A model generated the notes under the pieces. The model did no database searches and had not been told where the DNA came from. It worked only from the letters and a program-made list of their open reading frames with translations. DNA of 64,000 nucleotides from contig JAOADJ010000037.1 of assembly GCA_026417375.1 (NCBI GenBank), positions 124,001-188,000 on the forward strand, written 5' to 3'. Shown one piece after another: positions 1-10,378 of this stretch (its first letter is position 1; every line of letters starts with the position of its first letter). The position numbers and the translations under genes were made by a program. The DNA comes from Melioribacteraceae bacterium (GTDB taxonomy: Bacteria; Bacteroidota; Ignavibacteria; Ignavibacteriales; Melioribacteraceae).

Positions 1-231
1 ATTTAATTTTGTTTGAAATGCAATTTCATTTACAATTTCAGGGTCTTCATTTACAAAAACACCGACAGAAAAAATAAAAGGTGATAATTGAGAAATTATT
101 TCTTTGGCTTTGATTGGTTCAATATATCTTTTACTTTGTTTATAAAAAACAAAACCTAATGCATCAGCTCCACATTCAACAGAAAATAGTGCATCTTCCA
201 GATTTGTTATTCCACATATTTTAATTTTCAT
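1..231 (-). CDS. trpF: Phosphoribosylanthranilate isomerase, partial (C-terminal part outside window)
   Basis: Catalyses the Amadori rearrangement of N-(5-phosphoribosyl)anthranilate to CdRP, the third step from chorismate to tryptophan. The first 77 codons are visible. They begin at an ATG (229-231) and encode [14 protein letters not shown], the phosphate-barrel N-terminus typical of TrpF with the catalytic Cys of the KICG motif, followed by [10 protein letters not shown]. The start overlaps the trpC stop by 11 bases, so the two are translationally coupled. The window edge, not a mutation, ends the frame. Identification is secure from the N-terminal motif and from the gene order trpE-G-D-C-F. 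Confidence 0.93.
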
Positions 232-1015
232 TTTTACACCAGTTAGAAAATAATTGTAATTCTTTTTCTATATCATTTGATTTCATAAAATGTTCACCAA
301 CTAAAACTGCATTTATTTTTTTTGATTTTAATTTCTCTATATCGTTTTTGGATGTGATTCCACTTTCTGAAACGGTTATAATATCAGATGGAATTAATTT
401 TAACAATTCGAATGTAGTGTTAATATTTACATTAAATGTTTCGAGGTTGCGATTATTAATGCCTATAATTTTATTAAGAGAGAAATCAATTTTATCAAGT
501 TGTTTCGGTGAATGGATTTCCAATAAAACATCAAGATTAATTTCCTGAGCAACATTTGTAAAATATTTTATTTGCTCAGAAGATAGAATTTCAGCAATTA
601 ATAAAATAGCATCAGCACCATTGGACTTTGCTTCAAAAATTTGAATTTCATCTATAATAAAATCTTTACGTAACAAAGGAGCTTTTTTTATTGAAGCAAT
701 ATCTTTTAGAAATGTAATATCTCCCATGAAAAATAATCTATCTGTTAAAATCGAAACTGCGTCAACTGAATTATTAAAATAGATTTTACTTATATCAATG
801 TGATTAAAGTTTTCTCTAATTATACCTTTCGAAGGACTGGCTTTTTTTATTTCTGCAATTAAATTTAATTGTCCTTTTTTTGAAATAGATTTTTCGAAAT
901 AAAAATTATGACAATTAAAGAATTGTGAATCTTCAAAACTTTTTTGAGAAAATTTATTTTTAAGATTCAATACCTCTTCTTTTTTGGCTTCTAAAATTTT
1001 TTCTAGAATATTCAT
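221..1015 (-). CDS. trpC: Indole-3-glycerol phosphate synthase
   Basis: Closes the indole ring by decarboxylating CdRP to indole-3-glycerol phosphate. The 264-residue length is normal for a stand-alone TrpC TIM barrel. Visible signatures are [10 protein letters not shown] near residue 57 (catalytic Lys and phosphate contacts), RKDFIID near residue 116, the EIHSP strand and VSESGI near residue 215. The ATG shares four bases with the trpD stop (ATGA, 1012-1015), and the 3' end overlaps trpF. It is not fused to TrpF as in enteric bacteria. It belongs to the attenuated trp operon read from the leader at 4144-4227. Confidence 0.97.
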
Positions 1016-2031
1016 TTGTATTTTTCACCAAATTCTTTCAGTTGCATTAATTTTTGTAAAGTTTTTCCGGATTGAATAGCATCATCAGCAATTTCAATAC
1101 ATTCTTTCAAATTATCAGAAACACCAGCAACTTTTAATGCCATTGCTGAATTTGCAACAACAACTTTATAAGAAGGTGTTTTTTCTTTTTCTGAAAAAAT
1201 GTCAAAAATTATTTTTGCATTTTCTTTACTGCTTCCACCTTTAATATCATCAATGTTTATTTTGTTGAATCCAAATTCTTCTGGTGACAATTCATAAACA
1301 TTTATGAAATTATGTCCATTTGTTTCTATAACATTAGTTGGATGTGTTAATGTAATTTCATCGTAGGAATTATTTGTACAAATAAAAGATAAACTTTTGG
1401 AGTCTAAATACTTTGAAGATTCCGACATAAGCTTTGCAGTTTCTAAATTAAATGTACCTATTAATTGTCTTTTAACATTTGCTGGATTTGTTAATGGTCC
1501 GAGAATATTAAATATTGAACGAAACTCAAGTTCTTTTCTGATAGGTGCAACATGCTTCATTGCCGGGTGATAAAGTGGTGCAAATAAAAATGCAATTCCA
1601 ATTTCATTCAATGCTTTCTCTGATAATTCAAGTGAAAGCTGAACATCAACACCAAGTTCGTGTAATACATCTGAGCTTCCACTTTTACTTGAAATAGAAC
1701 GATTACCATGTTTTGCAACTTTAACTCCGCATGAAGCAACAACAAATCCAACCGCAGTTGAAATATTAAATGTGCCAGAGCAATCACCACCTGTTCCACA
1801 TACATCAATTAAATTATCATCTTCGCATTTGATAGGAATTACCTTTTCTCGCATTGCTTTTATAAATCCGGCAATTTCTTCAGGTGTTTCCTTTTTCATT
1901 TTTAAAGCAGTTAGTAAAGAAGCAATTTGAGAATTATTTACTTCTCCACTCATAACTGATAACATTACTTTATAAGCTTCATCAAAAGTTAAATTATTGC
2001 CATCAATAATTTTTTCTAAAATGTCTTTCAT
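1012..2031 (-). CDS. trpD: Anthranilate phosphoribosyltransferase
   Basis: Transfers the phosphoribosyl group of PRPP to anthranilate. The protein has 339 residues when started at the ATG at 2029-2031. A longer frame starts at a TTG (2043), but the inner ATG forms a 4-base ATGA overlap with the trpG stop, the same coupling seen at the trpD/trpC junction, so it is preferred. Motifs include DVCGTGGD with the following SGTFNIST (PRPP site, about residue 76), KHGNRSISSKSGSSD (anthranilate/PRPP site) and a central NPA near the conserved PLTNPA box. TrpD is a separate protein here, not fused to the glutaminase. Confidence 0.97.
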   Translation of the reverse strand: MKDILEKIIDGNNLTFDEAYKVMLSVMSGEVNNSQIASLLTALKMKKETPEEIAGFIKAMREKVIPIKCEDDNLIDVCGTGGDCSGTFNISTAVGFVVASCGVKVAKHGNRSISSKSGSSDVLHELGVDVQLSLELSEKALNEIGIAFLFAPLYHPAMKHVAPIRKELEFRSIFNILGPLTNPANVKRQLIGTFNLETAKLMSESSKYLDSKSLSFICTNNSYDEITLTHPTNVIETNGHNFINVYELSPEEFGFNKINIDDIKGGSSKENAKIIFDIFSEKEKTPSYKVVVANSAMALKVAGVSDNLKECIEIADDAIQSGKTLQKLMQLKEFGEKYK

Positions 2032-2594
2032 AAATCCAACCAATTTTTAATTATGTTCTTTCCTTCTAATGTCATAATTGATTCGGGATGAAACTGAATT
2101 CCCTCAATAGGAAAATTTTTATGTCGGATTCCCATAATAATTTCATCTGAGGTTTGAGATGAAATTTCAAAATCATTTGGTAAAGATTTTTTTTCCACAA
2201 CAAGAGAATGATATCTTCCGGCCAAAAATTTTTGAGGTATATTTTTATAAATTGTTTTACCATCATGTATAATTTCAGATGATTTCCCATGCATCAAATT
2301 TGGAGCATTAATAATTTTTCCTCCAAATACTTCTGCAATTGCTTGATGACCAAGACAAACACCAAGAATTGGTATTGTATTTCCAAAATATTTAATCACA
2401 TTTGGAGAGATACCGGAATCAATTGGTTTACCAGGACCAGGAGAAATAACAATCTTATCCGGGTTAATCAATTCTATTTCTTCAATTGAAGATTTATCAT
2501 TTCTTTTCACAATTATGTCATCAACAAAATAACCTATAAGTTGAACAAGGTTATATGTGAATGAATCATAATTATCAATTACCAATATTTTCAT
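2028..2594 (-). CDS. trpG: Anthranilate synthase component II (glutamine amidotransferase)
   Basis: Glutaminase subunit that hydrolyses glutamine and channels ammonia to TrpE. A class I amidotransferase domain fills the 188 residues: ISPGPGKP near residue 51, the nucleophile in LGVCLGHQAI near residue 80, and FHPES near residue 168 supplying the catalytic His and Glu. The start is taken as the ATG at 2592-2594 (MKILVIDNYDSFTYN); a TTG immediately upstream is ignored. It overlaps the trpE stop by about 20 bases and shares ATGA with trpD. A PabA role in folate synthesis is possible for amphibolic forms, since no separate pabA is visible here, but the operon position favours tryptophan. Confidence 0.96.
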   Translation of the reverse strand: MKILVIDNYDSFTYNLVQLIGYFVDDIIVKRNDKSSIEEIELINPDKIVISPGPGKPIDSGISPNVIKYFGNTIPILGVCLGHQAIAEVFGGKIINAPNLMHGKSSEIIHDGKTIYKNIPQKFLAGRYHSLVVEKKSLPNDFEISSQTSDEIIMGIRHKNFPIEGIQFHPESIMTLEGKNIIKNWLDL

Positions 2595-4065
2595 CAATTA
2601 CCTCGGCAAATTTTAAAGCGTTAATAAGAACAGCAGATTTATTTTTAATCTCTTTTAATTCAAGTTCGGGTTTACTATCAGCAACTATACCGGCACCAGC
2701 TTGCCAAAAAATATTTTTTTTATTAGCAAAAAATGTTCTTATAGAAATACACATATCAAGATTACCTTTGAAATCAATATATCCAACAGCTCCCGCATAA
2801 ATGTTTCTTCTTAAATTTTCATAATCATTTAATAACTGAATTGCTTTTATTTTCGGAGCCCCACTTACAGTTCCGGCAGGAAAGCTTGCTTTTAATGCAT
2901 CAATACAATTTTTATCATCAGATAAAATTCCTTTCACTCTTGATACAATGTGCATTACATGAGAAAATCTATGAATTGACATTTCTTCGGTTAGTTGAAC
3001 TGTTCCAGCTTTACAAACTCTTCCTAAATCATTTCTGGCTAAATCAACAAGCATAGTATGTTCAGCAATTTCTTTGGGGTCATTTAATAATTCATTCTCA
3101 ATTGAAAAATCTTCTTCAACTGTTTTTCCTCTTCTTCTTGTTCCTGCAATAGGTAAAATTGTAGCACGTTTATTTTTTACTTTTAATAAATCTTCCGGGG
3201 ATGTTCCTATAATAGTAAGTTTGTCATAAAAATCATTTTCTGGAAATTCCATGAAATACATGTATGGCGATGGATTTATAATTCTTAATGCTCTGTAAAC
3301 ATTAATCAAATCACCTTCATAGGTAGAAGAAAATCTTTTTGATAAAACAATTTGGAATACATCCCCTTCAAAAATATTTAGTTTACATTTTTCAACTAAA
3401 TTAAAAAAAGTATCTTCATCATTATTTTCAATCGGAGAATTTGATTTAAAATGTAGTTTTGGATTTATCGATTTTGCTAATTCATTCCTAAGTTTTTTTA
3501 ACTCATCTTTTGCCTGATAATATAAAAATTCAATATTACTTGATGAATCAATATTAACATTTTTTATCAAAATAATCTGATGCTTGAAATGATCGAATGC
3601 AATTAGTAAATCAAAAACTCCAAATATTGAATCTGGAATGTTGTTCTTATTTTCATTTGTAAACTGAATTACATTTTCAATTAAACAAACATTTTCATAT
3701 CCAAGATAGCCAACAATTCCACCAGTGAAATCAGGTAATTCATCAATTTTAGGATCAGCAGTTTTAGAAATTTCATTCGAAAGGAAATCAAAAATATTTT
3801 GTTCAATATTTATAACTGTTTGATTTTCAATTACTGTGATATTATTTCCTTTGTTGAAAAAAATCTTTGATGGATTTTTACTTATGAAAGAATATCGGGC
3901 TAATCTTCCAATACCTTCAACAGATTCAAGAAGAAAACTAAAAGAATTATTTTCTTTTATTTTCAAATACGCCAAAACAGGAGTTAGTAAATCTGCGGTT
4001 ATAATTTCATAAACAGGAATTTTATTATACTGTTTAGATAATTCTTTGAATTTATTTAAATCCAT
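2575..4065 (-). CDS. trpE: Anthranilate synthase component I
   Basis: Converts chorismate plus ammonia to anthranilate and pyruvate, the committed and feedback-inhibited step of tryptophan synthesis. Started at the ATG at 4063-4065 the protein has 496 residues, beginning MDLNKFKEL. A frame from a TTG at 4113 would start inside the attenuator hairpin and is rejected. The N-terminal LLES motif followed by RYSFI is the allosteric tryptophan-binding signature. The chorismate-binding half shows PSPYMYF, GTSPEDLL, GTRRRG, and FPAGTVSGAPK near the C-terminus. It is the first structural gene after the leader peptide, 78 bases beyond the leader stop codon. Confidence 0.97.
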   Translation of the reverse strand: MDLNKFKELSKQYNKIPVYEIITADLLTPVLAYLKIKENNSFSFLLESVEGIGRLARYSFISKNPSKIFFNKGNNITVIENQTVINIEQNIFDFLSNEISKTADPKIDELPDFTGGIVGYLGYENVCLIENVIQFTNENKNNIPDSIFGVFDLLIAFDHFKHQIILIKNVNIDSSSNIEFLYYQAKDELKKLRNELAKSINPKLHFKSNSPIENNDEDTFFNLVEKCKLNIFEGDVFQIVLSKRFSSTYEGDLINVYRALRIINPSPYMYFMEFPENDFYDKLTIIGTSPEDLLKVKNKRATILPIAGTRRRGKTVEEDFSIENELLNDPKEIAEHTMLVDLARNDLGRVCKAGTVQLTEEMSIHRFSHVMHIVSRVKGILSDDKNCIDALKASFPAGTVSGAPKIKAIQLLNDYENLRRNIYAGAVGYIDFKGNLDMCISIRTFFANKKNIFWQAGAGIVADSKPELELKEIKNKSAVLINALKFAEVIDENIGN

Positions 4066-4088
4066 AATAATTCCAAATTGTTTAAAAC

Positions 4089-4121
4089 AAAAAACCCTTC
4101 CCGGTGAATCCAAGAAGGGTT
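4089..4121 (-). terminator. trp attenuator terminator hairpin
   Basis: On the minus strand AACCCTTC (4121 to 4114) pairs with GAAGGGTT (4100 to 4093), an 8-bp stem with a 13-base loop, followed by a run of six U ending at 4089. It lies between trpL and trpE. Its loop (4100-4109) is perfectly complementary to 4142-4151, so it can be prevented by an alternative upstream pairing. Confidence 0.85.
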
Positions 4122-4151
4122 AAAAAAATAAAAAAATTCTAATTCACCGGG
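4100..4151 (-). promoter_or_regulatory. trp antiterminator pairing
   Basis: A perfect 10-bp inverted repeat joins 4142-4151 (RNA CCCGGTGAAT, which includes the trpL stop codon) to 4100-4109 (RNA ATTCACCGGG, the loop and first base of the 3' arm of the attenuator). Inferred mechanism: a ribosome stalled at the Trp codons leaves 4142-4151 free, so the antiterminator forms and trpE is transcribed. A ribosome that reaches the TGA covers this segment and the terminator folds. The 20 or so bases between the last Trp codon and the pairing segment suit a stalled ribosome's footprint. Confidence 0.8.
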
Positions 4152-4227
4152 TTAGGATATATAAATTGCACCACCACCAATTTTGGTTTAATGAATTAGA
4201 ACGATATGTTAAATTAAATTTTTTCAT
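4144..4227 (-). CDS. trpL: trp operon leader peptide with three tandem Trp codons
   Basis: A 27-codon frame, too short for ordinary gene calling, runs ATG (4225-4227) to TGA (4144-4146) and contains TGG-TGG-TGG at 4171-4179 (Trp17 to Trp19). Three consecutive Trp codons in 27 is far above expectation for such an AT-rich sequence. The frame lies immediately upstream of trpE and of a hairpin with a U-tract. Its stop codon sits inside the sequence complementary to the loop of that hairpin. Together these are the hallmarks of a ribosome-stalling trp attenuator. There is no clear Shine-Dalgarno sequence, and the ATG is only four bases from the U-tract of the tRNA-Asn terminator. Confidence 0.88.
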   Translation of the reverse strand: MKKFNLTYRSNSLNQNWWWCNLYILTR

Positions 4228-4231
4228 AATT

Positions 4232-4256
4232 AAAAAAACCCCGAAGCTCGGGGTTT
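4232..4256 (-). terminator. Intrinsic terminator after tRNA-Asn
   Basis: On the minus strand AAACCCCGA pairs with TCGGGGTTT around a 3-base loop and continues into seven T. It starts two bases beyond the tRNA-Asn 3' end and ends four bases before the trpL ATG. That leaves no obvious room for a separate trp promoter. Confidence 0.9.
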
Positions 4257-4258
4257 AG

Positions 4259-4330
4259 CTCCGCGGGTAGGGCTCGAACCTACAACCCTGCGGTTAACAG
4301 CCGCATGCTCTGCCATTGAGCTACCGCGGA
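4259..4330 (-). tRNA. tRNA-Asn(GTT)
   Basis: A full 72-base cloverleaf on the minus strand: 7-bp acceptor TCCGCGG/CCGCGGA, D-arm GCTC/GAGC, anticodon stem TGCGG/CCGCA with loop CTGTTAA (anticodon GTT), T-arm GTAGG/CCTAC with TTCGAGC, and discriminator G. CCA is not encoded. A TTGACA/TATTTTTA promoter lies upstream, and an intrinsic terminator follows directly. Confidence 0.97.
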
Positions 4331-4350
4331 GTACATTCAAAATGTGGGCG

Positions 4351-4382
4351 TAAAAATATGTCTTTAACTATATTTTTGTCAA
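4351..4382 (-). promoter_or_regulatory. Promoter of tRNA-Asn
   Basis: On the minus strand TTGACA (4382 to 4377), an 18-base spacer and TATTTTTA (4358 to 4351) lie about 21 bases upstream of the mature tRNA 5' end. The -10 region fits the Bacteroidota TAnnTTTG form with the last base changed. It closely resembles the tRNA-Met promoter at 56240-56270. Confidence 0.65.
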
Positions 4383-4443
4383 GTCTTTCTTAAAAAATAT
4401 TTTCATATACAAAAAATTATTTCCAATATTTAAGAAAAGACTT
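4381..4443. repeat. Long imperfect inverted repeat between tRNA-Asn and mcm genes
   Basis: Arms 4381-4401 and 4425-4443 are near-perfect complements (aagtcttt-cttaaa...atatt against aatatttaagaaaagactt), with a 23-base loop. On the plus strand the right arm runs into five T, so it could terminate plus-strand transcription. It touches the -35 box of the tRNA-Asn promoter. The rest of 4331-4573 shows only AT-rich sequence with a threefold ttattcttt motif (about 4470-4500) and the mcm ribosome-binding site aaaggtg. No B12-riboswitch box is seen. Confidence 0.4.
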
Positions 4444-4573
4444 TTTGACTTCTTCTTTTAATTTATTCTTTATTCTTTGAAATATTCGTTTATTCTTTGT
4501 TTTTTAAATTCACAAAACATATTTAATAAACGGCACATTACTTGCCACAAATTCATCACTTTAAAGGTGAAAT

Positions 4574-6253
4574 ATGGAATTAGAAGATATTAAACAAAAA
4601 GTACAACAAGCTTTCAACTTATGGAATGAAAATATTTATCAAAAAACAATTACAAAATTTCCGGAACAAAAAAAAGAATTTACAACTCAATCATTTTCTA
4701 AAGTAAATCCGATTTATACTCCTCTTGATTTGGATAATTCAAATTACAATGAAAAAATAGGATTTCCCGGAGCTTATCCTTTTACACGTGGTGTTCAACC
4801 AACGATGTATCGTGGAAGATTTTGGACAATGCGTCAATATGCTGGATTTGGTACAGCTAAAGAATCAAATGAACGATATAAATATTTATTAGCACAAGGG
4901 CAAAGTGGATTATCAGTTGCATTCGATCTGCCAACTCAAATTGGTTACGATAGCGATCACCCTATGGCGCTTGGTGAAGTTGGTAAAGTTGGTGTTGCTA
5001 TTGATACTTTAGCAGATATGGAAATTTTATTCAATCAAATTCCTTTGGATAAAGTTTCTACCTCGATGACAATAAATGCACCTGCTTCAGTTTTGCTTGC
5101 TATGTATATTGTGGTTGCCGAAAAACAAGGAGTAAGTAGAGATAAAATTTCTGGTACAATTCAAAATGATATATTAAAAGAATATGTTGCAAGAGGTACT
5201 TACATTTATCCACCAAAACCTTCAATGAGATTAATTACCAACATATTTGAATTTTGCTCAAAAGAAGTTCCGAAGTGGAATACAATTTCAATTTCTGGTT
5301 ATCATATAAGAGAAGCAGGTTCAACTGCTGCGCAAGAAGTTGGATTTACATTAGCTGATGGTATTGCATATGTTGATGCTGCAATTAAAGCAGGATTAAA
5401 TGTAGATGATTTCGCTGGTCAGCTTTCTTTCTTTTTTAATGCTCATAATGATTTATTGGAAGAAGTAGCAAAATTCCGTGCTGCCCGCCGCCTATGGGCT
5501 AAAATAATGAAAGAAAGATTTGGTGCTAAAAAAGAAAAATCAATGATGTTAAGATTTCACACTCAAACTGCCGGATCTACTTTAACTGCTCAACAAGTTG
5601 ATAATAATATTGTGCGAGTAACAATTCAAACTTTAGCAGCAGTATTAGGTGGAACTCAAAGCTTGCATACAAATAGCCGGGATGAAGCTCTTGCTCTTCC
5701 AAACGAAAATTCAGTTCGAACTGCTTTAAGAACACAACAAATTGTTGCTTACGAAAGTGGAATAATAAACACTATAGATCCATTAGCCGGGTCATATTAT
5801 ATTGAAGCTCTGACAGACCAAATAGAAAAGGAAGCCGAAGAGTATATTAATAAAATTGATTCAATGGGTGGTGTGGCAAATGCTATTGAAGCGGGATACA
5901 TCCAAACTGAAATTCAAAAATCGGCTTACAGATATCAACAAGAAGTTGAAAAAGGAGAAAGAATAATTGTTGGTGTAAATAAATTTATAATTGATGAACC
6001 CGAACCGAAAGATTTATTAAAAATTGATGAGAAAGTTCAAAAAGAACAAATTGAATTCTTAAATAAAATCAGAAATGAGAGAAATAATATTGAAGTTCAA
6101 GAAAAATTAAATGCATTGAAAGCTGCTGCTAAGACTGATGTAAACCTAATGCCATTAATTATTGATGCTGTAAAAGTTTATGCATCTATTGGTGAAATTT
6201 GTAATGTTATGAGAGATGTATTTGGTGAATATAAAGAACATGTAGTTATATAA
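4574..6253 (+). CDS. mcmA: Methylmalonyl-CoA mutase, large (substrate-binding) subunit
   Basis: Adenosylcobalamin-dependent isomerisation of succinyl-CoA and (R)-methylmalonyl-CoA. The 559 residues cover only the TIM-barrel substrate domain. Visible are [21 protein letters not shown] (about residue 69), the [16 protein letters not shown] segment, [17 protein letters not shown] with the conserved His, [16 protein letters not shown], and [18 protein letters not shown]. The protein stops where the C-terminal B12-binding (flavodoxin-like, DxHxxG) domain would begin in the full-length enzyme. The cobalamin subunit must therefore be a separate protein, and none is encoded nearby. The ATG follows aaaggtg at good spacing. 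It heads the methylmalonyl-CoA operon. Confidence 0.95.
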
Positions 6254-6281
6254 TTGTTTGCTTAATTAAAAGGAATACAAA

Positions 6282-6701
6282 ATGAAAATATCACATATTG
6301 AACATATAGGTATAGCTGTTAAAAATTTAGAAGAATCAATAAAATATTATGAAGATATTTTAGGGTTGAAATGTTATGGTATTGAAGAAGTAAAAGATCA
6401 AAAAGTTAAAACAGCATTCTTTAAAGTTGGACAAACAAAAATTGAACTTTTAGAAACAACAGATCCCGAAGGTCCGATTGGAAAATTTATAGATAAAAAG
6501 GGGGAAGGAATTCATCATATTGCTTTTGCTACTGATAATTTATCAGAAGCATTAAAAGAAGTTGAAGAAAAAGGTATTCAACTAATTGATAAATCCCCAA
6601 GAAAAGGTGCAGAAGGATTGAATATTGCATTCCTTCATCCGAAATCTACAGGTAGTGTTTTGACAGAATTGTGTGAAAATAATTCAGAAGAAAATAAGTA
6701 A
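6282..6701 (+). CDS. mce: Methylmalonyl-CoA epimerase
   Basis: Interconverts the R and S epimers of methylmalonyl-CoA, linking the mutase (R) to the decarboxylase (S). The 139-residue protein is a two-module vicinal-oxygen-chelate fold: HIEHIGIAVKNLEES at the N-terminus, GEGIHHIAFATDNL in the second module, and a C-terminal LTELCE. These supply the His and Glu metal ligands expected for the family. The start has an aaagga ribosome-binding site and lies 28 bases after mcmA. Some VOC proteins are lactoylglutathione lyases, but the operon makes the epimerase call firm. Confidence 0.95.
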   Translation: MKISHIEHIGIAVKNLEESIKYYEDILGLKCYGIEEVKDQKVKTAFFKVGQTKIELLETTDPEGPIGKFIDKKGEGIHHIAFATDNLSEALKEVEEKGIQLIDKSPRKGAEGLNIAFLHPKSTGSVLTELCENNSEENK

Positions 6702-6771
6702 ATCAAATTTTTAAAGAATCAAAAAAATTTAATAATTGTTGATAAAAAAATTAAAACTACAAAGGTGAATA

Positions 6772-8331
6772 ATGGCATTAGAAGAAAAAATTAAAGAGTT
6801 GATGGAATTACGTGAAAAGGCAAGATTAGGCGGCGGCGAAAAAAGAATTGAAGCTCAACACAAAAAAGGAAAATTTACTGCACGCGAAAGAATTGAAATG
6901 TTGCTTGATGAAGGTAGCTTCGAAGAATTTGATATGTTCGTTTCTCACAGAACACACGACTTTGGCTTAGATAAACAATCTTTCTTATCTGATGGAGTTG
7001 TTACTGGTTATGGTACAATTGATGGAAGATTAGTTTATGTTTTTTCGCAAGACTTTACAGTTTTTGGTGGTTCACTTTCAGAAATGTTTGCTCAAAAAAT
7101 TTGTAAAGTTATGGATAAAGCAATGAAAGTTGGTGCACCTATTATTGGAATAAATGATAGTGGTGGAGCCAGAATTCAGGAAGGAGTAAAAAGTTTAGCG
7201 GGATATGCAGAAATATTTCAAAGAAATATTTTAGCAAGTGGCTTAGTTCCACAAATTTCTGCAATCTTTGGTCCATGTGCAGGTGGTGCTGTTTATTCTC
7301 CTGCTCTTACAGATTTTACCATTATGAGTAAAAATACAAGTTACATGTTTGTAACCGGACCTAAAGTTGTAAAGACAGTTACGGGTGAAGTTGTTGACGA
7401 AGAATCACTTGGTGGAGCTATGGTTCATGGTTCAAAATCGGGTGTTACACATTTTGTTGCAGATAATGAAGAAGAAGGAATTTTATTAATCAGAAAATTA
7501 TTGAGCTACTTACCTCAAAATAATTTAGAAGATCCTCCTCTTAGCGTTTGTGATGATCCGATTGATAGATTAGAAGATTCGTTAAATGAATTAATACCTG
7601 AAAATCCAAACAAACCTTATGATGTTAAAGATGTAATTCATGCAATTGTAGATTATAATGAATTTTTAGAAATTCACAGACATTATGCGCCAAATATAAT
7701 TACAGGTTTTGCACGCTTTAATGGAATGTCTGTCGGAATAGTTGCAAATCAACCAAATTATTTGGCAGGTGTGTTAGATATAAATTCATCAAGAAAAGCT
7801 GCTCGCTTTGTAAGATTTTGTGATGCATTCAATATTCCAATTGTTACTTTGGTTGATGTTCCGGGATTTTTACCTGGCACGGCTCAAGAATATGGTGGAA
7901 TAATTCTTCATGGTGCTAAACTTCTTTTTGCATATGGCGAAGCAACAGTTCCAAAAGTTACTGTAATATTAAGAAAAGCATATGGCGGAGCTTATGATGT
8001 AATGGGTTCAAAACATTTGCGTGGTGATATAAACTATGCTTGGCCAACAGCTGAAATTGCTGTGATGGGACCACGTGGAGCTGTTGAAGTTTTAAATCAA
8101 AAAGAAATTTCAGCTATTGAAAATCCCGAAGAACGTGCAAAATTTATTCAACAAAAAGAAGATGATTACAGAAAGAAATTTGCTAATCCTTATGTTGCGG
8201 CAAAGTATGGATATATTGATGATGTGATTGAACCAAGAAATACAAGATTCAGAATAATTCGAGCACTTCAATCTTTAGCAACAAAAAAAGAAGTTAATCC
8301 TCCAAAGAAACATTCAAATATTCCTTTGTGA
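6772..8331 (+). CDS. mmdA: Methylmalonyl-CoA decarboxylase alpha subunit (carboxyltransferase)
   Basis: Carboxyltransferase that moves the carboxyl group of (S)-methylmalonyl-CoA to biotin on MmdC, releasing propionyl-CoA. Its 519 residues form the two crotonase-like halves of the acyl-CoA carboxyltransferase family, with GGARIQEGV near residue 131, [16 protein letters not shown] near residue 167 and [21 protein letters not shown] near residue 370. By sequence alone it could equally be propionyl-CoA carboxylase beta (PccB). The membrane decarboxylase subunits encoded directly downstream, and the lack of a biotin carboxylase gene, favour MmdA. The ribosome-binding region aaaggtgaat closely copies that of mcmA. 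Confidence 0.92.
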
Positions 8332-8338
8332 GGCAATT

Positions 8339-8758
8339 ATGAATTTTTTAATTGCACAAATAACACCAGCAGCTGTTGATTCACTTTCTAAATCTAAAAT
8401 TCATGAAAATGCTGATAAATTTTTAAAGATTGATCCACTTGGTATTGGAATAACATTTATTGGAATGTCTGTTGTTTTTCTTGCTTTACTTTTACTTTAT
8501 ATAATTTTCTTTAACATTACAAAAGTAATTAACAAAAAAATATCACTTGTTAAAAAAGAAGAAAGTAAAGAAAAGAAACAAGTAAACATTTCAACAAATC
8601 CAAACGAAGAAATTTATGCCGCAATTGGATTAGCACTTCATCTTCATTTCTCAGAATTACATGATAAAGAAAGTACAGTTTTAACAATTAATAAAGTTGC
8701 AAGAACATATTCTCCATGGAGTTCAAAAATCTATGGATTAAGACAATTTCCAAGATAA
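8339..8758 (+). CDS. mmdD: OadG/MmdD-family small membrane subunit of the decarboxylase
   Basis: A 139-residue protein with one strong transmembrane helix at about residues 38-62 (IGITFIGMSVVFLALLLLYI). A Lys/Glu-rich linker and a soluble C-terminal part follow, the latter starting EEIYAAIGLALHLHF and containing the family's short SPWSSKIYGLRQ tail. This layout matches the gamma/delta chains (OadG/MmdD) that assemble the sodium-pump decarboxylase and hold the soluble carboxyltransferase at the membrane. It lies eight bases after mmdA and ten before mmdC. The N-terminal 35 residues before the helix are longer than in many family members. Confidence 0.85.
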   Translation: MNFLIAQITPAAVDSLSKSKIHENADKFLKIDPLGIGITFIGMSVVFLALLLLYIIFFNITKVINKKISLVKKEESKEKKQVNISTNPNEEIYAAIGLALHLHFSELHDKESTVLTINKVARTYSPWSSKIYGLRQFPR

Positions 8759-8768
8759 AGGTACAATT

Positions 8769-9212
8769 ATGAAAAAATACAAAATGAAAATTAATGGTAA
8801 CGATTACGAAGTTGATATATTGAATGTTGATGATAACATTGCAGAAGTTTCAGTGAATGGAGAAAAATATACAGTTGAACTTGAGAAGAAAAGCCAAACT
8901 TCTAAAACACCAAAACTTGTTCGTTCTGTTGCTGCTCCTTCAACAGATATTGATAAATCAATTGCAAAGACAAGTAATCCAACTGAACAAAAAGGAGTTG
9001 GTTATATTAAATCTCCATTACCAGGTGTTATATTAAATATAGATGTAAATGTAGGAGATGAAGTTAAAATTGGTCAAAGGTTGCTCGTTCTTGAAGCGAT
9101 GAAAATGGAAAATAATATTAATTCTGATAAGAATGGAAAAGTTGTTTCAATAAAAGTAAAGCCAGGTGATAGTGTATTGGAAGGGGATTTACTTATCGAG
9201 ATTGGAGTTTAA
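8769..9212 (+). CDS. mmdC: Biotin carboxyl-carrier subunit of methylmalonyl-CoA decarboxylase
   Basis: Carries the carboxyl group between MmdA and the membrane subunit MmdB. The 147-residue protein has an N-terminal beta-rich segment, a Ser/Thr/Lys/Pro-containing linker (about residues 41-75) and a C-terminal biotinyl domain with the biotinylation motif EAMKM (biotin on Lys112). The flexible linker suits a carrier that swings between two active sites. It is packed between mmdD and mmdB with gaps of ten and two bases. No biotin protein ligase is encoded in the window. Confidence 0.95.
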   Translation: MKKYKMKINGNDYEVDILNVDDNIAEVSVNGEKYTVELEKKSQTSKTPKLVRSVAAPSTDIDKSIAKTSNPTEQKGVGYIKSPLPGVILNIDVNVGDEVKIGQRLLVLEAMKMENNINSDKNGKVVSIKVKPGDSVLEGDLLIEIGV

Positions 9213-9214
9213 AG

Positions 9215-10378
9215 ATGGGAAATTTTCTTGAATTTACAGCTCATGGTTTTGATCAATTTATGAGATATACTGCATTTGCAAATTTTACTATTGGTCATTT
9301 GATAATGATTATTGTTGCTTTTGTTTTTATTTACCTTGCAATTGCAAAAGATTATGAGCCATTACTTTTAGTACCCATTGGTTTTGGAATTTTGGTTGGC
9401 AATATTCCATTTTTAGAAAATGCGAATCTTCAAATTGGAATTTATGAAAAAGGAAGTGTATTAAATTATTTATACTTTGGTGTAAGTAACGGAATTTATC
9501 CACCATTAATTTTTCTTGGAATTGGAGCAATGACAGATTTTTCATACTTGCTTTCAAATCCAAAATTAATTTTGATTGGTGCAGCTGCTCAACTTGGAAT
9601 TTTTGGAGCTTATACTATTGCTCTTTTATTAGGATTTTTACCTCAACAGGCAGCTGCAATTGGAATTATTGGCGGTGCCGATGGTCCTACTGCAATTTTT
9701 CTTGCCTCAAAATTAGCTCCTGAACTTGTAGGTGCTATTGCAGTTTCAGCTTATTCTTATATGGCTCTTGTTCCAGTTATTCAACCGCCTATTATGAAAT
9801 TGTTAACAACTGAAAAAGAAAGATTAATAAAAATGAAGCCTCCTCGACAGGTAAGCAAATTAGAAAAAGTACTGTTTCCTATTGTAGGACTTTTGCTTAC
9901 CTGTTTTATTACTCCTTCTGCTTTGCCTTTACTTGGTATGTTATTTTTTGGAAATATATTAAAAGAAAGTGGTGTTACTAAAAGATTAGCCGACACAGCA
10001 AAAGGACCAATGATTGATGTTGTTACTATTTTAATTGGTTTAACTGTAGGAGCTTCAACTCAGGCAACAACATTTTTAACTGCTAAATCTGTTGGAATTT
10101 TTGCTCTGGGTGCTTTTTCTTTTATGGTAGCTACTTTTGGTGGTGTAATTTTCGCAAAAATTATGAATTTATTTTTAACTGATGAAAATAAAATTAATCC
10201 TTTAATAGGAAATGCAGGTGTTTCTGCTGTGCCAGATAGCGCAAGAGTTTCTCAAATGATTGGGTTACAATACGATCCTAAAAATCATTTACTGATGCAT
10301 GCTATGGCTCCAAATGTTGCGGGTGTTATTGGCTCTGCTGTTGCTGCTGGTATTTTACTTTCATTTTTTATGGGATAA
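9215..10378 (+). CDS. mmdB: Na+-translocating methylmalonyl-CoA decarboxylase beta subunit
   Basis: Integral membrane subunit that decarboxylates carboxybiotin and exports Na+ (OadB/MmdB/GcdB family). The 387 residues are mostly hydrophobic, with about nine to eleven helices. The signature GGADGPTAIFLASKLAP (about residue 148) contains the Asp implicated in Na+ binding in this family. The second conserved loop reads GNAGVSAVPDSARVSQ (about residue 329). It is the last gene of the unit and is followed by a GC-containing hairpin at 10400-10425. Its presence separates this operon from a simple propionyl-CoA carboxylase and implies that propionate formation here conserves energy as a sodium gradient. 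Confidence 0.96.
   Translation: MGNFLEFTAHGFDQFMRYTAFANFTIGHLIMIIVAFVFIYLAIAKDYEPLLLVPIGFGILVGNIPFLENANLQIGIYEKGSVLNYLYFGVSNGIYPPLIFLGIGAMTDFSYLLSNPKLILIGAAAQLGIFGAYTIALLLGFLPQQAAAIGIIGGADGPTAIFLASKLAPELVGAIAVSAYSYMALVPVIQPPIMKLLTTEKERLIKMKPPRQVSKLEKVLFPIVGLLLTCFITPSALPLLGMLFFGNILKESGVTKRLADTAKGPMIDVVTILIGLTVGASTQATTFLTAKSVGIFALGAFSFMVATFGGVIFAKIMNLFLTDENKINPLIGNAGVSAVPDSARVSQMIGLQYDPKNHLLMHAMAPNVAGVIGSAVAAGILLSFFMG

Follow-up and report, generated by a model that had tools for sequence, protein, structure and literature searches.

The trp operon of the Melioribacteraceae bacterium studied here, of whose DNA we analysed one stretch of 64,000 nucleotides (the window), is preceded by a short reading frame with three adjacent tryptophan codons and by an intrinsic terminator. 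We read this arrangement, with a probability of about 85%, as a ribosome-mediated transcription attenuator of a known kind with an unusual antiterminator target. The reading is directly supported by the frame and its codons, by three mutually exclusive helices, by their conservation and covariation among relatives and by the equilibrium switch computed for the window's own leader. Leader-peptide attenuation itself is known; what appears to be new here is the host group, Bacteroidota and Ignavibacteria, together with the unusual way of blocking the terminator. The locus comprises the following elements:

4144..4227, minus strand: trpL leader frame of 27 codons (ATG 4227-4225, stop TGA 4146-4144), peptide MKKFNLTYRSNSLNQNWWWCNLYILTR
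4171..4179, minus strand: sensor, three adjacent Trp codons, Trp17-19 (TGG at 4179-4177, 4176-4174 and 4173-4171)
4190..4202, minus strand: segment 1, within the leader frame; pairs with 4148-4136 and stops 10 bases short of the first Trp codon
4136..4151, minus strand: segment 2, the switching segment, with one part (4148-4136) that pairs with segment 1 and another (4151-4142) that pairs with the terminator loop and upper 3′ arm
4100..4109, minus strand: antiterminator target, loop 4109-4105 plus upper 3′ arm 4104-4100; perfect complement of 4151-4142
4093..4121, minus strand: intrinsic terminator with a 12-bp stem, a 5-nt loop (ATTCA) and a T-run from 4094
2575..4065, minus strand: trpE, first gene of the operon (ATG 4065-4063); best NCBIfam model TIGR00564, 506 bits against a cut-off of 517.7
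2028-2597, minus strand: trpG, downstream of trpE; NCBIfam trpG_papA model above cut-off
1012-2043, minus strand: trpD, downstream of trpG; NCBIfam trpD model above cut-off
221-1015, minus strand: trpC, downstream of trpD; NCBIfam TrpC model above cut-off

Positions 4151-4142 read CCCGGTGAAT, exactly the reverse complement of the ATTCACCGGG found at 4109-4100, and the predicted fold holds a third helix, between 4202-4190 and 4148-4136 (segments 1:2), which is mutually exclusive with the antiterminator because both use 4148-4142. A first-pass annotation of this DNA had described the 27-codon frame with Trp17-Trp18-Trp19 and the perfect 10-bp pairing of 4142-4151 with 4100-4109, and in both cases coordinates and bases read as claimed. 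The terminator and U-tract that it placed before trpE are present, but the stem has 12 bp and the loop 5 nt, not 8 bp and 13 nt. It had the loop captured rather than a full arm; five loop bases are indeed taken, but the 10-base partner 4109-4100 also includes five bases of the upper 3′ arm. The competing 1:2 helix is absent from that account.

The attenuator would operate as follows. When Trp-tRNA is plentiful, the ribosome would pass the three Trp codons, reach the stop codon and cover segment 2 (4151-4136), or alternatively be released, whereupon segment 1 would tie up segment 2; with segment 2 covered or tied up, the terminator at 4121-4093 would form and transcription would end before trpE. 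A shortage of Trp-tRNA would make the ribosome wait at the Trp codons, covering the loop-side, clashing part of segment 1 and leaving segment 2 free. The free segment would pair first with the future loop bases and then extend this helix into the upper 3′ arm while the arm is leaving RNA polymerase; the terminator would thus not be complete in time, and trpE would be transcribed. What we infer in this scheme is that the frame is translated, that the ribosome stalls and covers the distances assumed, that pairing starts in the loop and that expression changes.

The arrangement of trpL and terminator is very unlikely to be a product of chance, a judgement whose weight is carried by conservation and covariation and not by folding energy. 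WWW occurs in 2 of the 1347 frames of 10-45 codons in the whole window, the trpL frame being one of the two, and the region 3950-4600 holds three terminator-like sites (two of which overlap) against 0.4 (s.d. 0.7) in shuffles. Whole-leader folding energy was discarded as evidence, with a z of only -1.79 and 13 of 200 shuffles folding at least as well. Matches at the Rfam gathering score within the window were tRNAs only, with no leader family among them; between 3950 and 4400, Trp_leader (RF00513) was absent from the 19 matches up to E 10, and the best sub-threshold leader match near trpL was Phe_leader, at 22.7 bits of the 55 needed. The T-box family likewise gave no Rfam covariance-model match, either in the window at the gathering score or among those 19 matches. 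A TRAP-controlled trp leader, another known type, has about 11 (G/U)AG repeats and goes with a TRAP gene.

Among the relatives examined, the attenuator is very probably general and not limited to the window's genome, as judged from the sequences upstream of their trpE genes. The nearest TrpE, at 82-83% identity, is that of Stygiobacter electus, which places the window's genome among the Ignavibacteria. Related trpE loci were drawn from the best 80 of 197 relatives from named genomes and from family genomes (77 of 79 match TrpE at E 0.001, paralogues counted in); leaving out duplicates and loci with a TrpE identity below 46% gave 65 distinct upstream regions. A Trp-rich leader frame followed by an intrinsic terminator is found in 64 of these 65, the exception being L041, and the Trp run takes the form WWW, WAWWW, WGWW and similar, while the peptide outside the run is widely variable. 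The automatic choice of start codon may miss the true start of a leader, which affects its 5′ end and with it the scans for the frame, helix 1:2 and promoter boxes. Relative to the last base of the stop codon, the start of the best 10-base match ranges from 30 bases upstream to 15 bases downstream (64 leaders; the extremes are possibly chance). The first-pass annotation had placed the antiterminator across the leader stop codon; this is so in the window, but the variable offset among leaders excludes it as a design rule. More distant loci from named genomes (Clostridia, Chloroflexota and others) are mostly without a comparable leader. Short frames with a Trp run also stand before trpE in L065 (Calditrichota, WWWW), L043 (Balneolales, WW) and L064 (Brevinematales, WW), and in L076 (Neisseriaceae) a WW lies in a frame that runs into trpE. 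As a genome-wide probe, TGGTGGTGG was uninformative, with 112 sites versus 67 for the reversed pattern.

Segment 2 fits the terminator of its own leader. Over the 64 leaders, the 10-base score is 14.02 with the own terminator versus 11.94 with swapped ones (s.d. 0.28), beyond the maximum of 12.92 in 5000 permutations, and the duplex energy is -16.2 versus -13.0. Placing the motif blind to the terminator left 54 of the 64 leaders usable, the 10 without a motif at the cut-off being left out. In these 54, pairs 2, 3 and 4 are Watson-Crick in 43, 53 and 46 leaders against 25.9, 47.3 and 31.1 expected, values matched by none of 2000 permutations in each case; the values for pairs 7 and 8 were matched by 20 and 7 of 2000. 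Pairs 1, 9 and 10 gave no significant covariation in the same 54 leaders (1086, 103 and 364 of 2000 permutations); variation at pairs 5 and 6 is too slight to be informative on this point. Among 16 leaders of identical core, the result for the loop pairs was 34 of 5000 permutations, uncorrected for relatedness. Because permutations are blind to relatedness, double Watson-Crick changes were counted on a TrpE tree; pairs 2-4 account for 8 + 3 + 4 = 15 of them, pairs 7-10 for 1 + 2 + 3 + 1 = 7. Pairs 2-7 hold 16 double changes on this tree against 0 at every slide of one to three bases (of the six pairs, one lacks a partner at slide -2 and two at slide -3). The antiterminator is thus exclusive with the terminator and backed by covariation. 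The protector helix 1:2, which would tie up segment 2 when no ribosome waits, also fits its own leader specifically: its energy over 64 leaders is -11.83 kcal/mol for own and -8.78 kcal/mol for swapped segments (s.d. 0.33; minimum of 5000 permutations, -9.95), although its form differs between leaders and it is weak in several. The first-pass reading of the locus as a ribosome-stalling trp attenuator is upheld by these comparisons, in which the Trp codons are kept and the two complementary segments covary.

Covariation and peptide sequence also bear on whether the leader frame could be translated for another reason, as a trans-acting small protein or to aid reinitiation at trpE, with a terminator outside the control of tryptophan. 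Both have precedents, in that the Sinorhizobium peptide peTrpL has been reported as trans-acting (PMC7298713) and a role in promoting reinitiation has been proposed for leader frames (PMC4833913). We consider such an explanation very unlikely for the present leaders. Outside the Trp run the peptide varies widely; coding does not explain the conservation of segment 2, because this segment lies inside the frame in some leaders and outside it in others; and the covariation of mutually exclusive helices speaks against a terminator that is not Trp-controlled.

To locate the target of the antiterminator, the segment after the Trp codons was scored separately against the 5′ arm and against the loop plus 3′ arm of the terminator. 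In the window's group, pairing with the loop plus 3′ arm exceeds pairing with the 5′ arm in all 64 leaders (medians -12.65 and -4.25, respectively); splitting the hairpin at its midpoint instead makes the 5′ half stronger in 2 of 64. The E. coli trp leader, used as a control, returned the textbook topology (5′ arm -10.9, loop plus 3′ arm -4.9). In E. coli, trpL combines Trp codons in the leader frame and a terminator before trpE with alternative 1:2, 2:3 and 3:4 helices, and segment 1 includes the Trp codons. The window's leader shares the Trp-codon frame, the terminator before trpE, the exclusive helices and the same predicted logic. It differs in that E. coli segment 2 pairs with the 5′ arm whereas that of the window's group pairs with the loop and upper 3′ arm, and in that segment 1 of the window ends 10 bases before the Trp codons whereas that of E. 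coli includes them. If the E. coli type is defined by an antiterminator on the terminator's 5′ arm, the window's group falls outside it.

Trp leaders are common in our sample of the phylum, where the antiterminator seems mostly to capture the 5′ arm, as in E. coli. From 296 genomes drawn evenly, 253 had trpE at E 1e-70, and 98 trpE upstream stretches outside the window's order (L156-L253) were picked by hand among the matches listed, so that they are not a random set. An automatic rule found a short frame with WW in 56 of the 98, or 55 once the implausible L226 is removed; these leaders fall in 17 of 28 families, and a terminator accompanies the frame in 54 of the 55. The count leaves out L156, whose pattern is W-Y-W. 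No Trp leader was found in f24 (0/10), f41 (0/7), f10 (0/4) or eight smaller families of this 98-locus sample. The trp leaders of family f30 and of other families have the same kind of frame and terminator as the window's group, but the 5′ arm is mostly the stronger target, in 28 of 29 and 17 of 25 leaders, respectively. The window's lineage thus appears to aim the same kind of switch at the opposite side of the terminator. Among the 8 of 25 other-family leaders without a stronger 5′ arm, the gaps are largest in L196 (f28; -11.4 versus -5.3) and L194 (f43; -14.1 versus -8.7), which are possible independent cases of the loop plus 3′-arm topology. In L161 (f30), the switching segment GCAGTGGGTTTTTT resembles the terminator's own 3′ arm, including the T-run.

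A second biosynthetic operon of the window's family provides a comparison within the same genomes. In the window's own genome, outside the window, the region before hisG contains:

L254 2196-2267, minus strand: His-rich leader frame MNLIIGVNHHWHHRIPRRGAGLV, followed by a terminator, before hisG
L254 2331-2404, minus strand: tRNA-Gln, upstream of the hisG leader frame

hisG was found at the cut-off in 49 of the 75 family genomes searched, and 30 loci were read. A frame with at least three His codons and a terminator precede hisG in 29 of the 30 (L308 is without them), which independently supports leader-peptide control in these bacteria. The his leaders resemble the trp leaders of the same genomes in frame and terminator but differ in that their specific pairing is with the 5′ arm: over the 29 leaders, 5′-arm pairing is -9.37 for own and -8.29 for swapped terminators (s.d. 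0.25; minimum -9.12 in 2000), and loop plus 3′-arm pairing, at -8.34 versus -8.42 (s.d. 0.30), is nonspecific. Judged by strength alone, the 5′ arm is ahead in no more than 16 of 29; the contrast between his and trp is thus one of specificity. Elsewhere in the own genome, no comparable leader was found before the gene with a prephenate dehydratase domain or before three leuA-like genes.

The prevalence of 5′-arm capture elsewhere raises the question of whether the working antiterminator of the same attenuator also acts on the 5′ arm in the window's group, in the manner of E. coli, through bases that follow the motif (for example, TTGAAG). Its own 5′-arm pairing is slightly better than swapped (-4.37 versus -3.96, s.d. 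0.12), GAAG:CTTC pairs lie beside the main helix in some leaders, and the 5′ arm is the stronger target in most f30 and other-family trp leaders and the specific one in the his leaders of its own family. Against this, 5′-arm pairing is the stronger in none of the 64 leaders (two by the midpoint split), and the double changes with slid controls fall on 3′-arm and loop pairs. On balance we regard a working 5′-arm antiterminator in this group as unlikely, and retain the loop and upper 3′ arm as the probable target.

Folding calculations indicate how such a target might be reached. At equilibrium, a ribosome placed at the Trp codons brings terminator pairing in the window's leader to 0.00, compared with 0.96 for a ribosome at the stop codon and 0.94 for the leader without a ribosome. 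In full-length equilibrium folding across the group, stalling lowers terminator pairing by more than 0.05 in 11 of 64 leaders and not in the other 53; a purely equilibrium switch fits the window's leader but only those 11, and was therefore set aside in favour of a kinetic mechanism and a folding test in which the last bases of the 3′ arm are withheld, as though RNA polymerase had not yet released them. The antiterminator was counted as prevailing at a mean pairing above 0.5; this is so for 6, 24, 51, 61 and 57 of the 64 stalled leaders when 0, 3, 5, 7 and 8 bases are missing, an outcome that depends on the number of bases cut. With seven withheld, the antiterminator prevails in 8 of 64 when the ribosome is at the stop codon, and in stalled leaders the mean antiterminator pairing is 0.76 with own and 0.57 with swapped terminators; L023 and L032 show 0.00 antiterminator pairing in this test. 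The ribosome was assumed to cover 11 bases past the codon before the last Trp codon, or 9 past the stop codon. In this model, segment 2 would win a race for the loop and upper 3′ arm on the emerging RNA, an order of events that we infer.

Leader-peptide trp attenuators have been described in other groups. Those of Corynebacterium and Streptomyces are reported to have a leader frame with double or triple UGG, a GC-rich terminator with poly-U and complementary triples gGCC-rGCy-GGCC (PMC1262725). They resemble the window's leader, beside which they are set here by description, in the UGG-run frame and poly-U terminator but belong to another phylum. The same source names Proteobacteria, Corynebacterium and Streptomyces as known hosts (PMC1262725). 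A 2010 survey devoted to premature terminators states that leader-peptide systems were known only in Proteobacteria and Actinobacteria, with an antibiotic-sensing exception, before its own case in Firmicutes (PMC2965389); earlier large-scale leader searches are cited in another article (PMC4833913). Portions of a Bacteroides thetaiotaomicron transcriptome study report leader-peptide-like short frames in long 5′ UTRs, and a trp example is not noted in those portions (PMC7366714). In agreement with the first-pass annotation, which was aware of no experimentally described case in this group, the open-access full-text literature yielded no trp leader in Bacteroidota or Ignavibacteria, although subscription papers may hold one.

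In most relatives a promoter-like element lies immediately before the leader frame. Of the 64 leaders, 44 (for example, L026, L107 and L018) have a TAnnTTTG/TAnnTTTA box that precedes the leader ATG by 4-12 bases, against 3.2 in shuffles, and 37 combine the box with a TTG 20-22 bases upstream, against 0.2. In B. thetaiotaomicron, according to the same transcriptome study, a TAnnTTTG-type element is centred at -7, and 5′ UTRs of fewer than 10 bases make up only about 3.7% of the total (PMC7366714). An element centred at -7 would place the start of the leader transcript about 1-8 bases, mostly 3-5, from the ATG. This spacing suggests that translation of the leader peptide is nearly leaderless in the relatives. 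In Sinorhizobium meliloti, too, the trp leader frame lies at or near the transcript start. The two cases are alike in this position, judged here from promoter spacing, and differ in that S. meliloti is proteobacterial and a trans-acting peptide is reported there.

A broader account can be drawn from these observations, to which we would give slightly better than even odds. Leader-peptide attenuation would be general for trp (and his) in Bacteroidota; in Ignavibacteria the trp antiterminator would have abandoned the 5′ arm and taken the loop and 3′ arm as its target, blocking the apex kinetically by loop-first capture just before termination, with a nearly leaderless leader frame; and the his switch in the same cells would have kept the 5′ arm. 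If this is true, ribosome stalling controls trp genes across much of the phylum, and nature has performed an experiment in which the same switch is aimed at opposite terminator arms in different families and even in different operons of a single genome. This contrast would make the order of cotranscriptional folding events testable.

The window and its sister species depart from the promoter arrangement of the relatives: the TAnnTTTG/A box is absent in both, and in its place stands a tRNA-Asn with its own hairpin and T-run. The upstream elements in the window are:

4258..4330, minus strand: tRNA-Asn (GTT), directly upstream of the trp leader
4236..4256, minus strand: hairpin resembling a terminator, followed by a T-run, in the interval from tRNA-Asn to the leader ATG
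4353..4382, minus strand: promoter-like TTGACA / TATTTT before tRNA-Asn, a consensus match only

Promoter-like TTGACA / TATTTT matches number 4 in the stretch against 3.3 in shuffles. With no evident separate trp promoter, the operon may depend on read-through that starts at the tRNA promoter and meets two successive terminators. In both the window and its closest relative, the T-run of the upstream hairpin ends a few bases before the leader ATG, and the two hairpins are unrelated in sequence. The terminator-like hairpin between the promoter-like site and the leader was counted against the attenuator reading of the window itself. This position, behind tRNA-Asn and a terminator-like hairpin, is also what might be expected of a chance Trp run before an ordinary terminator or a tRNA read-through junction. 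Such a coincidence is, however, extremely improbable: the arrangement of leader frame and terminator is kept almost throughout the related trpE loci, and of 50 such loci scanned only that of the closest relative has the upstream tRNA-Asn. At another locus, L118, the upstream tRNA is a tRNA-Lys, encoded on the opposite strand.

The trp operon is adjoined by a set of genes for methylmalonyl-CoA metabolism (window 4574-10378). A mutase N-terminal domain, an epimerase and the beta subunit of a sodium-pumping decarboxylase score above their NCBIfam cut-offs, and a decarboxylase alpha-like protein and a biotin-carrier-like protein score below them.
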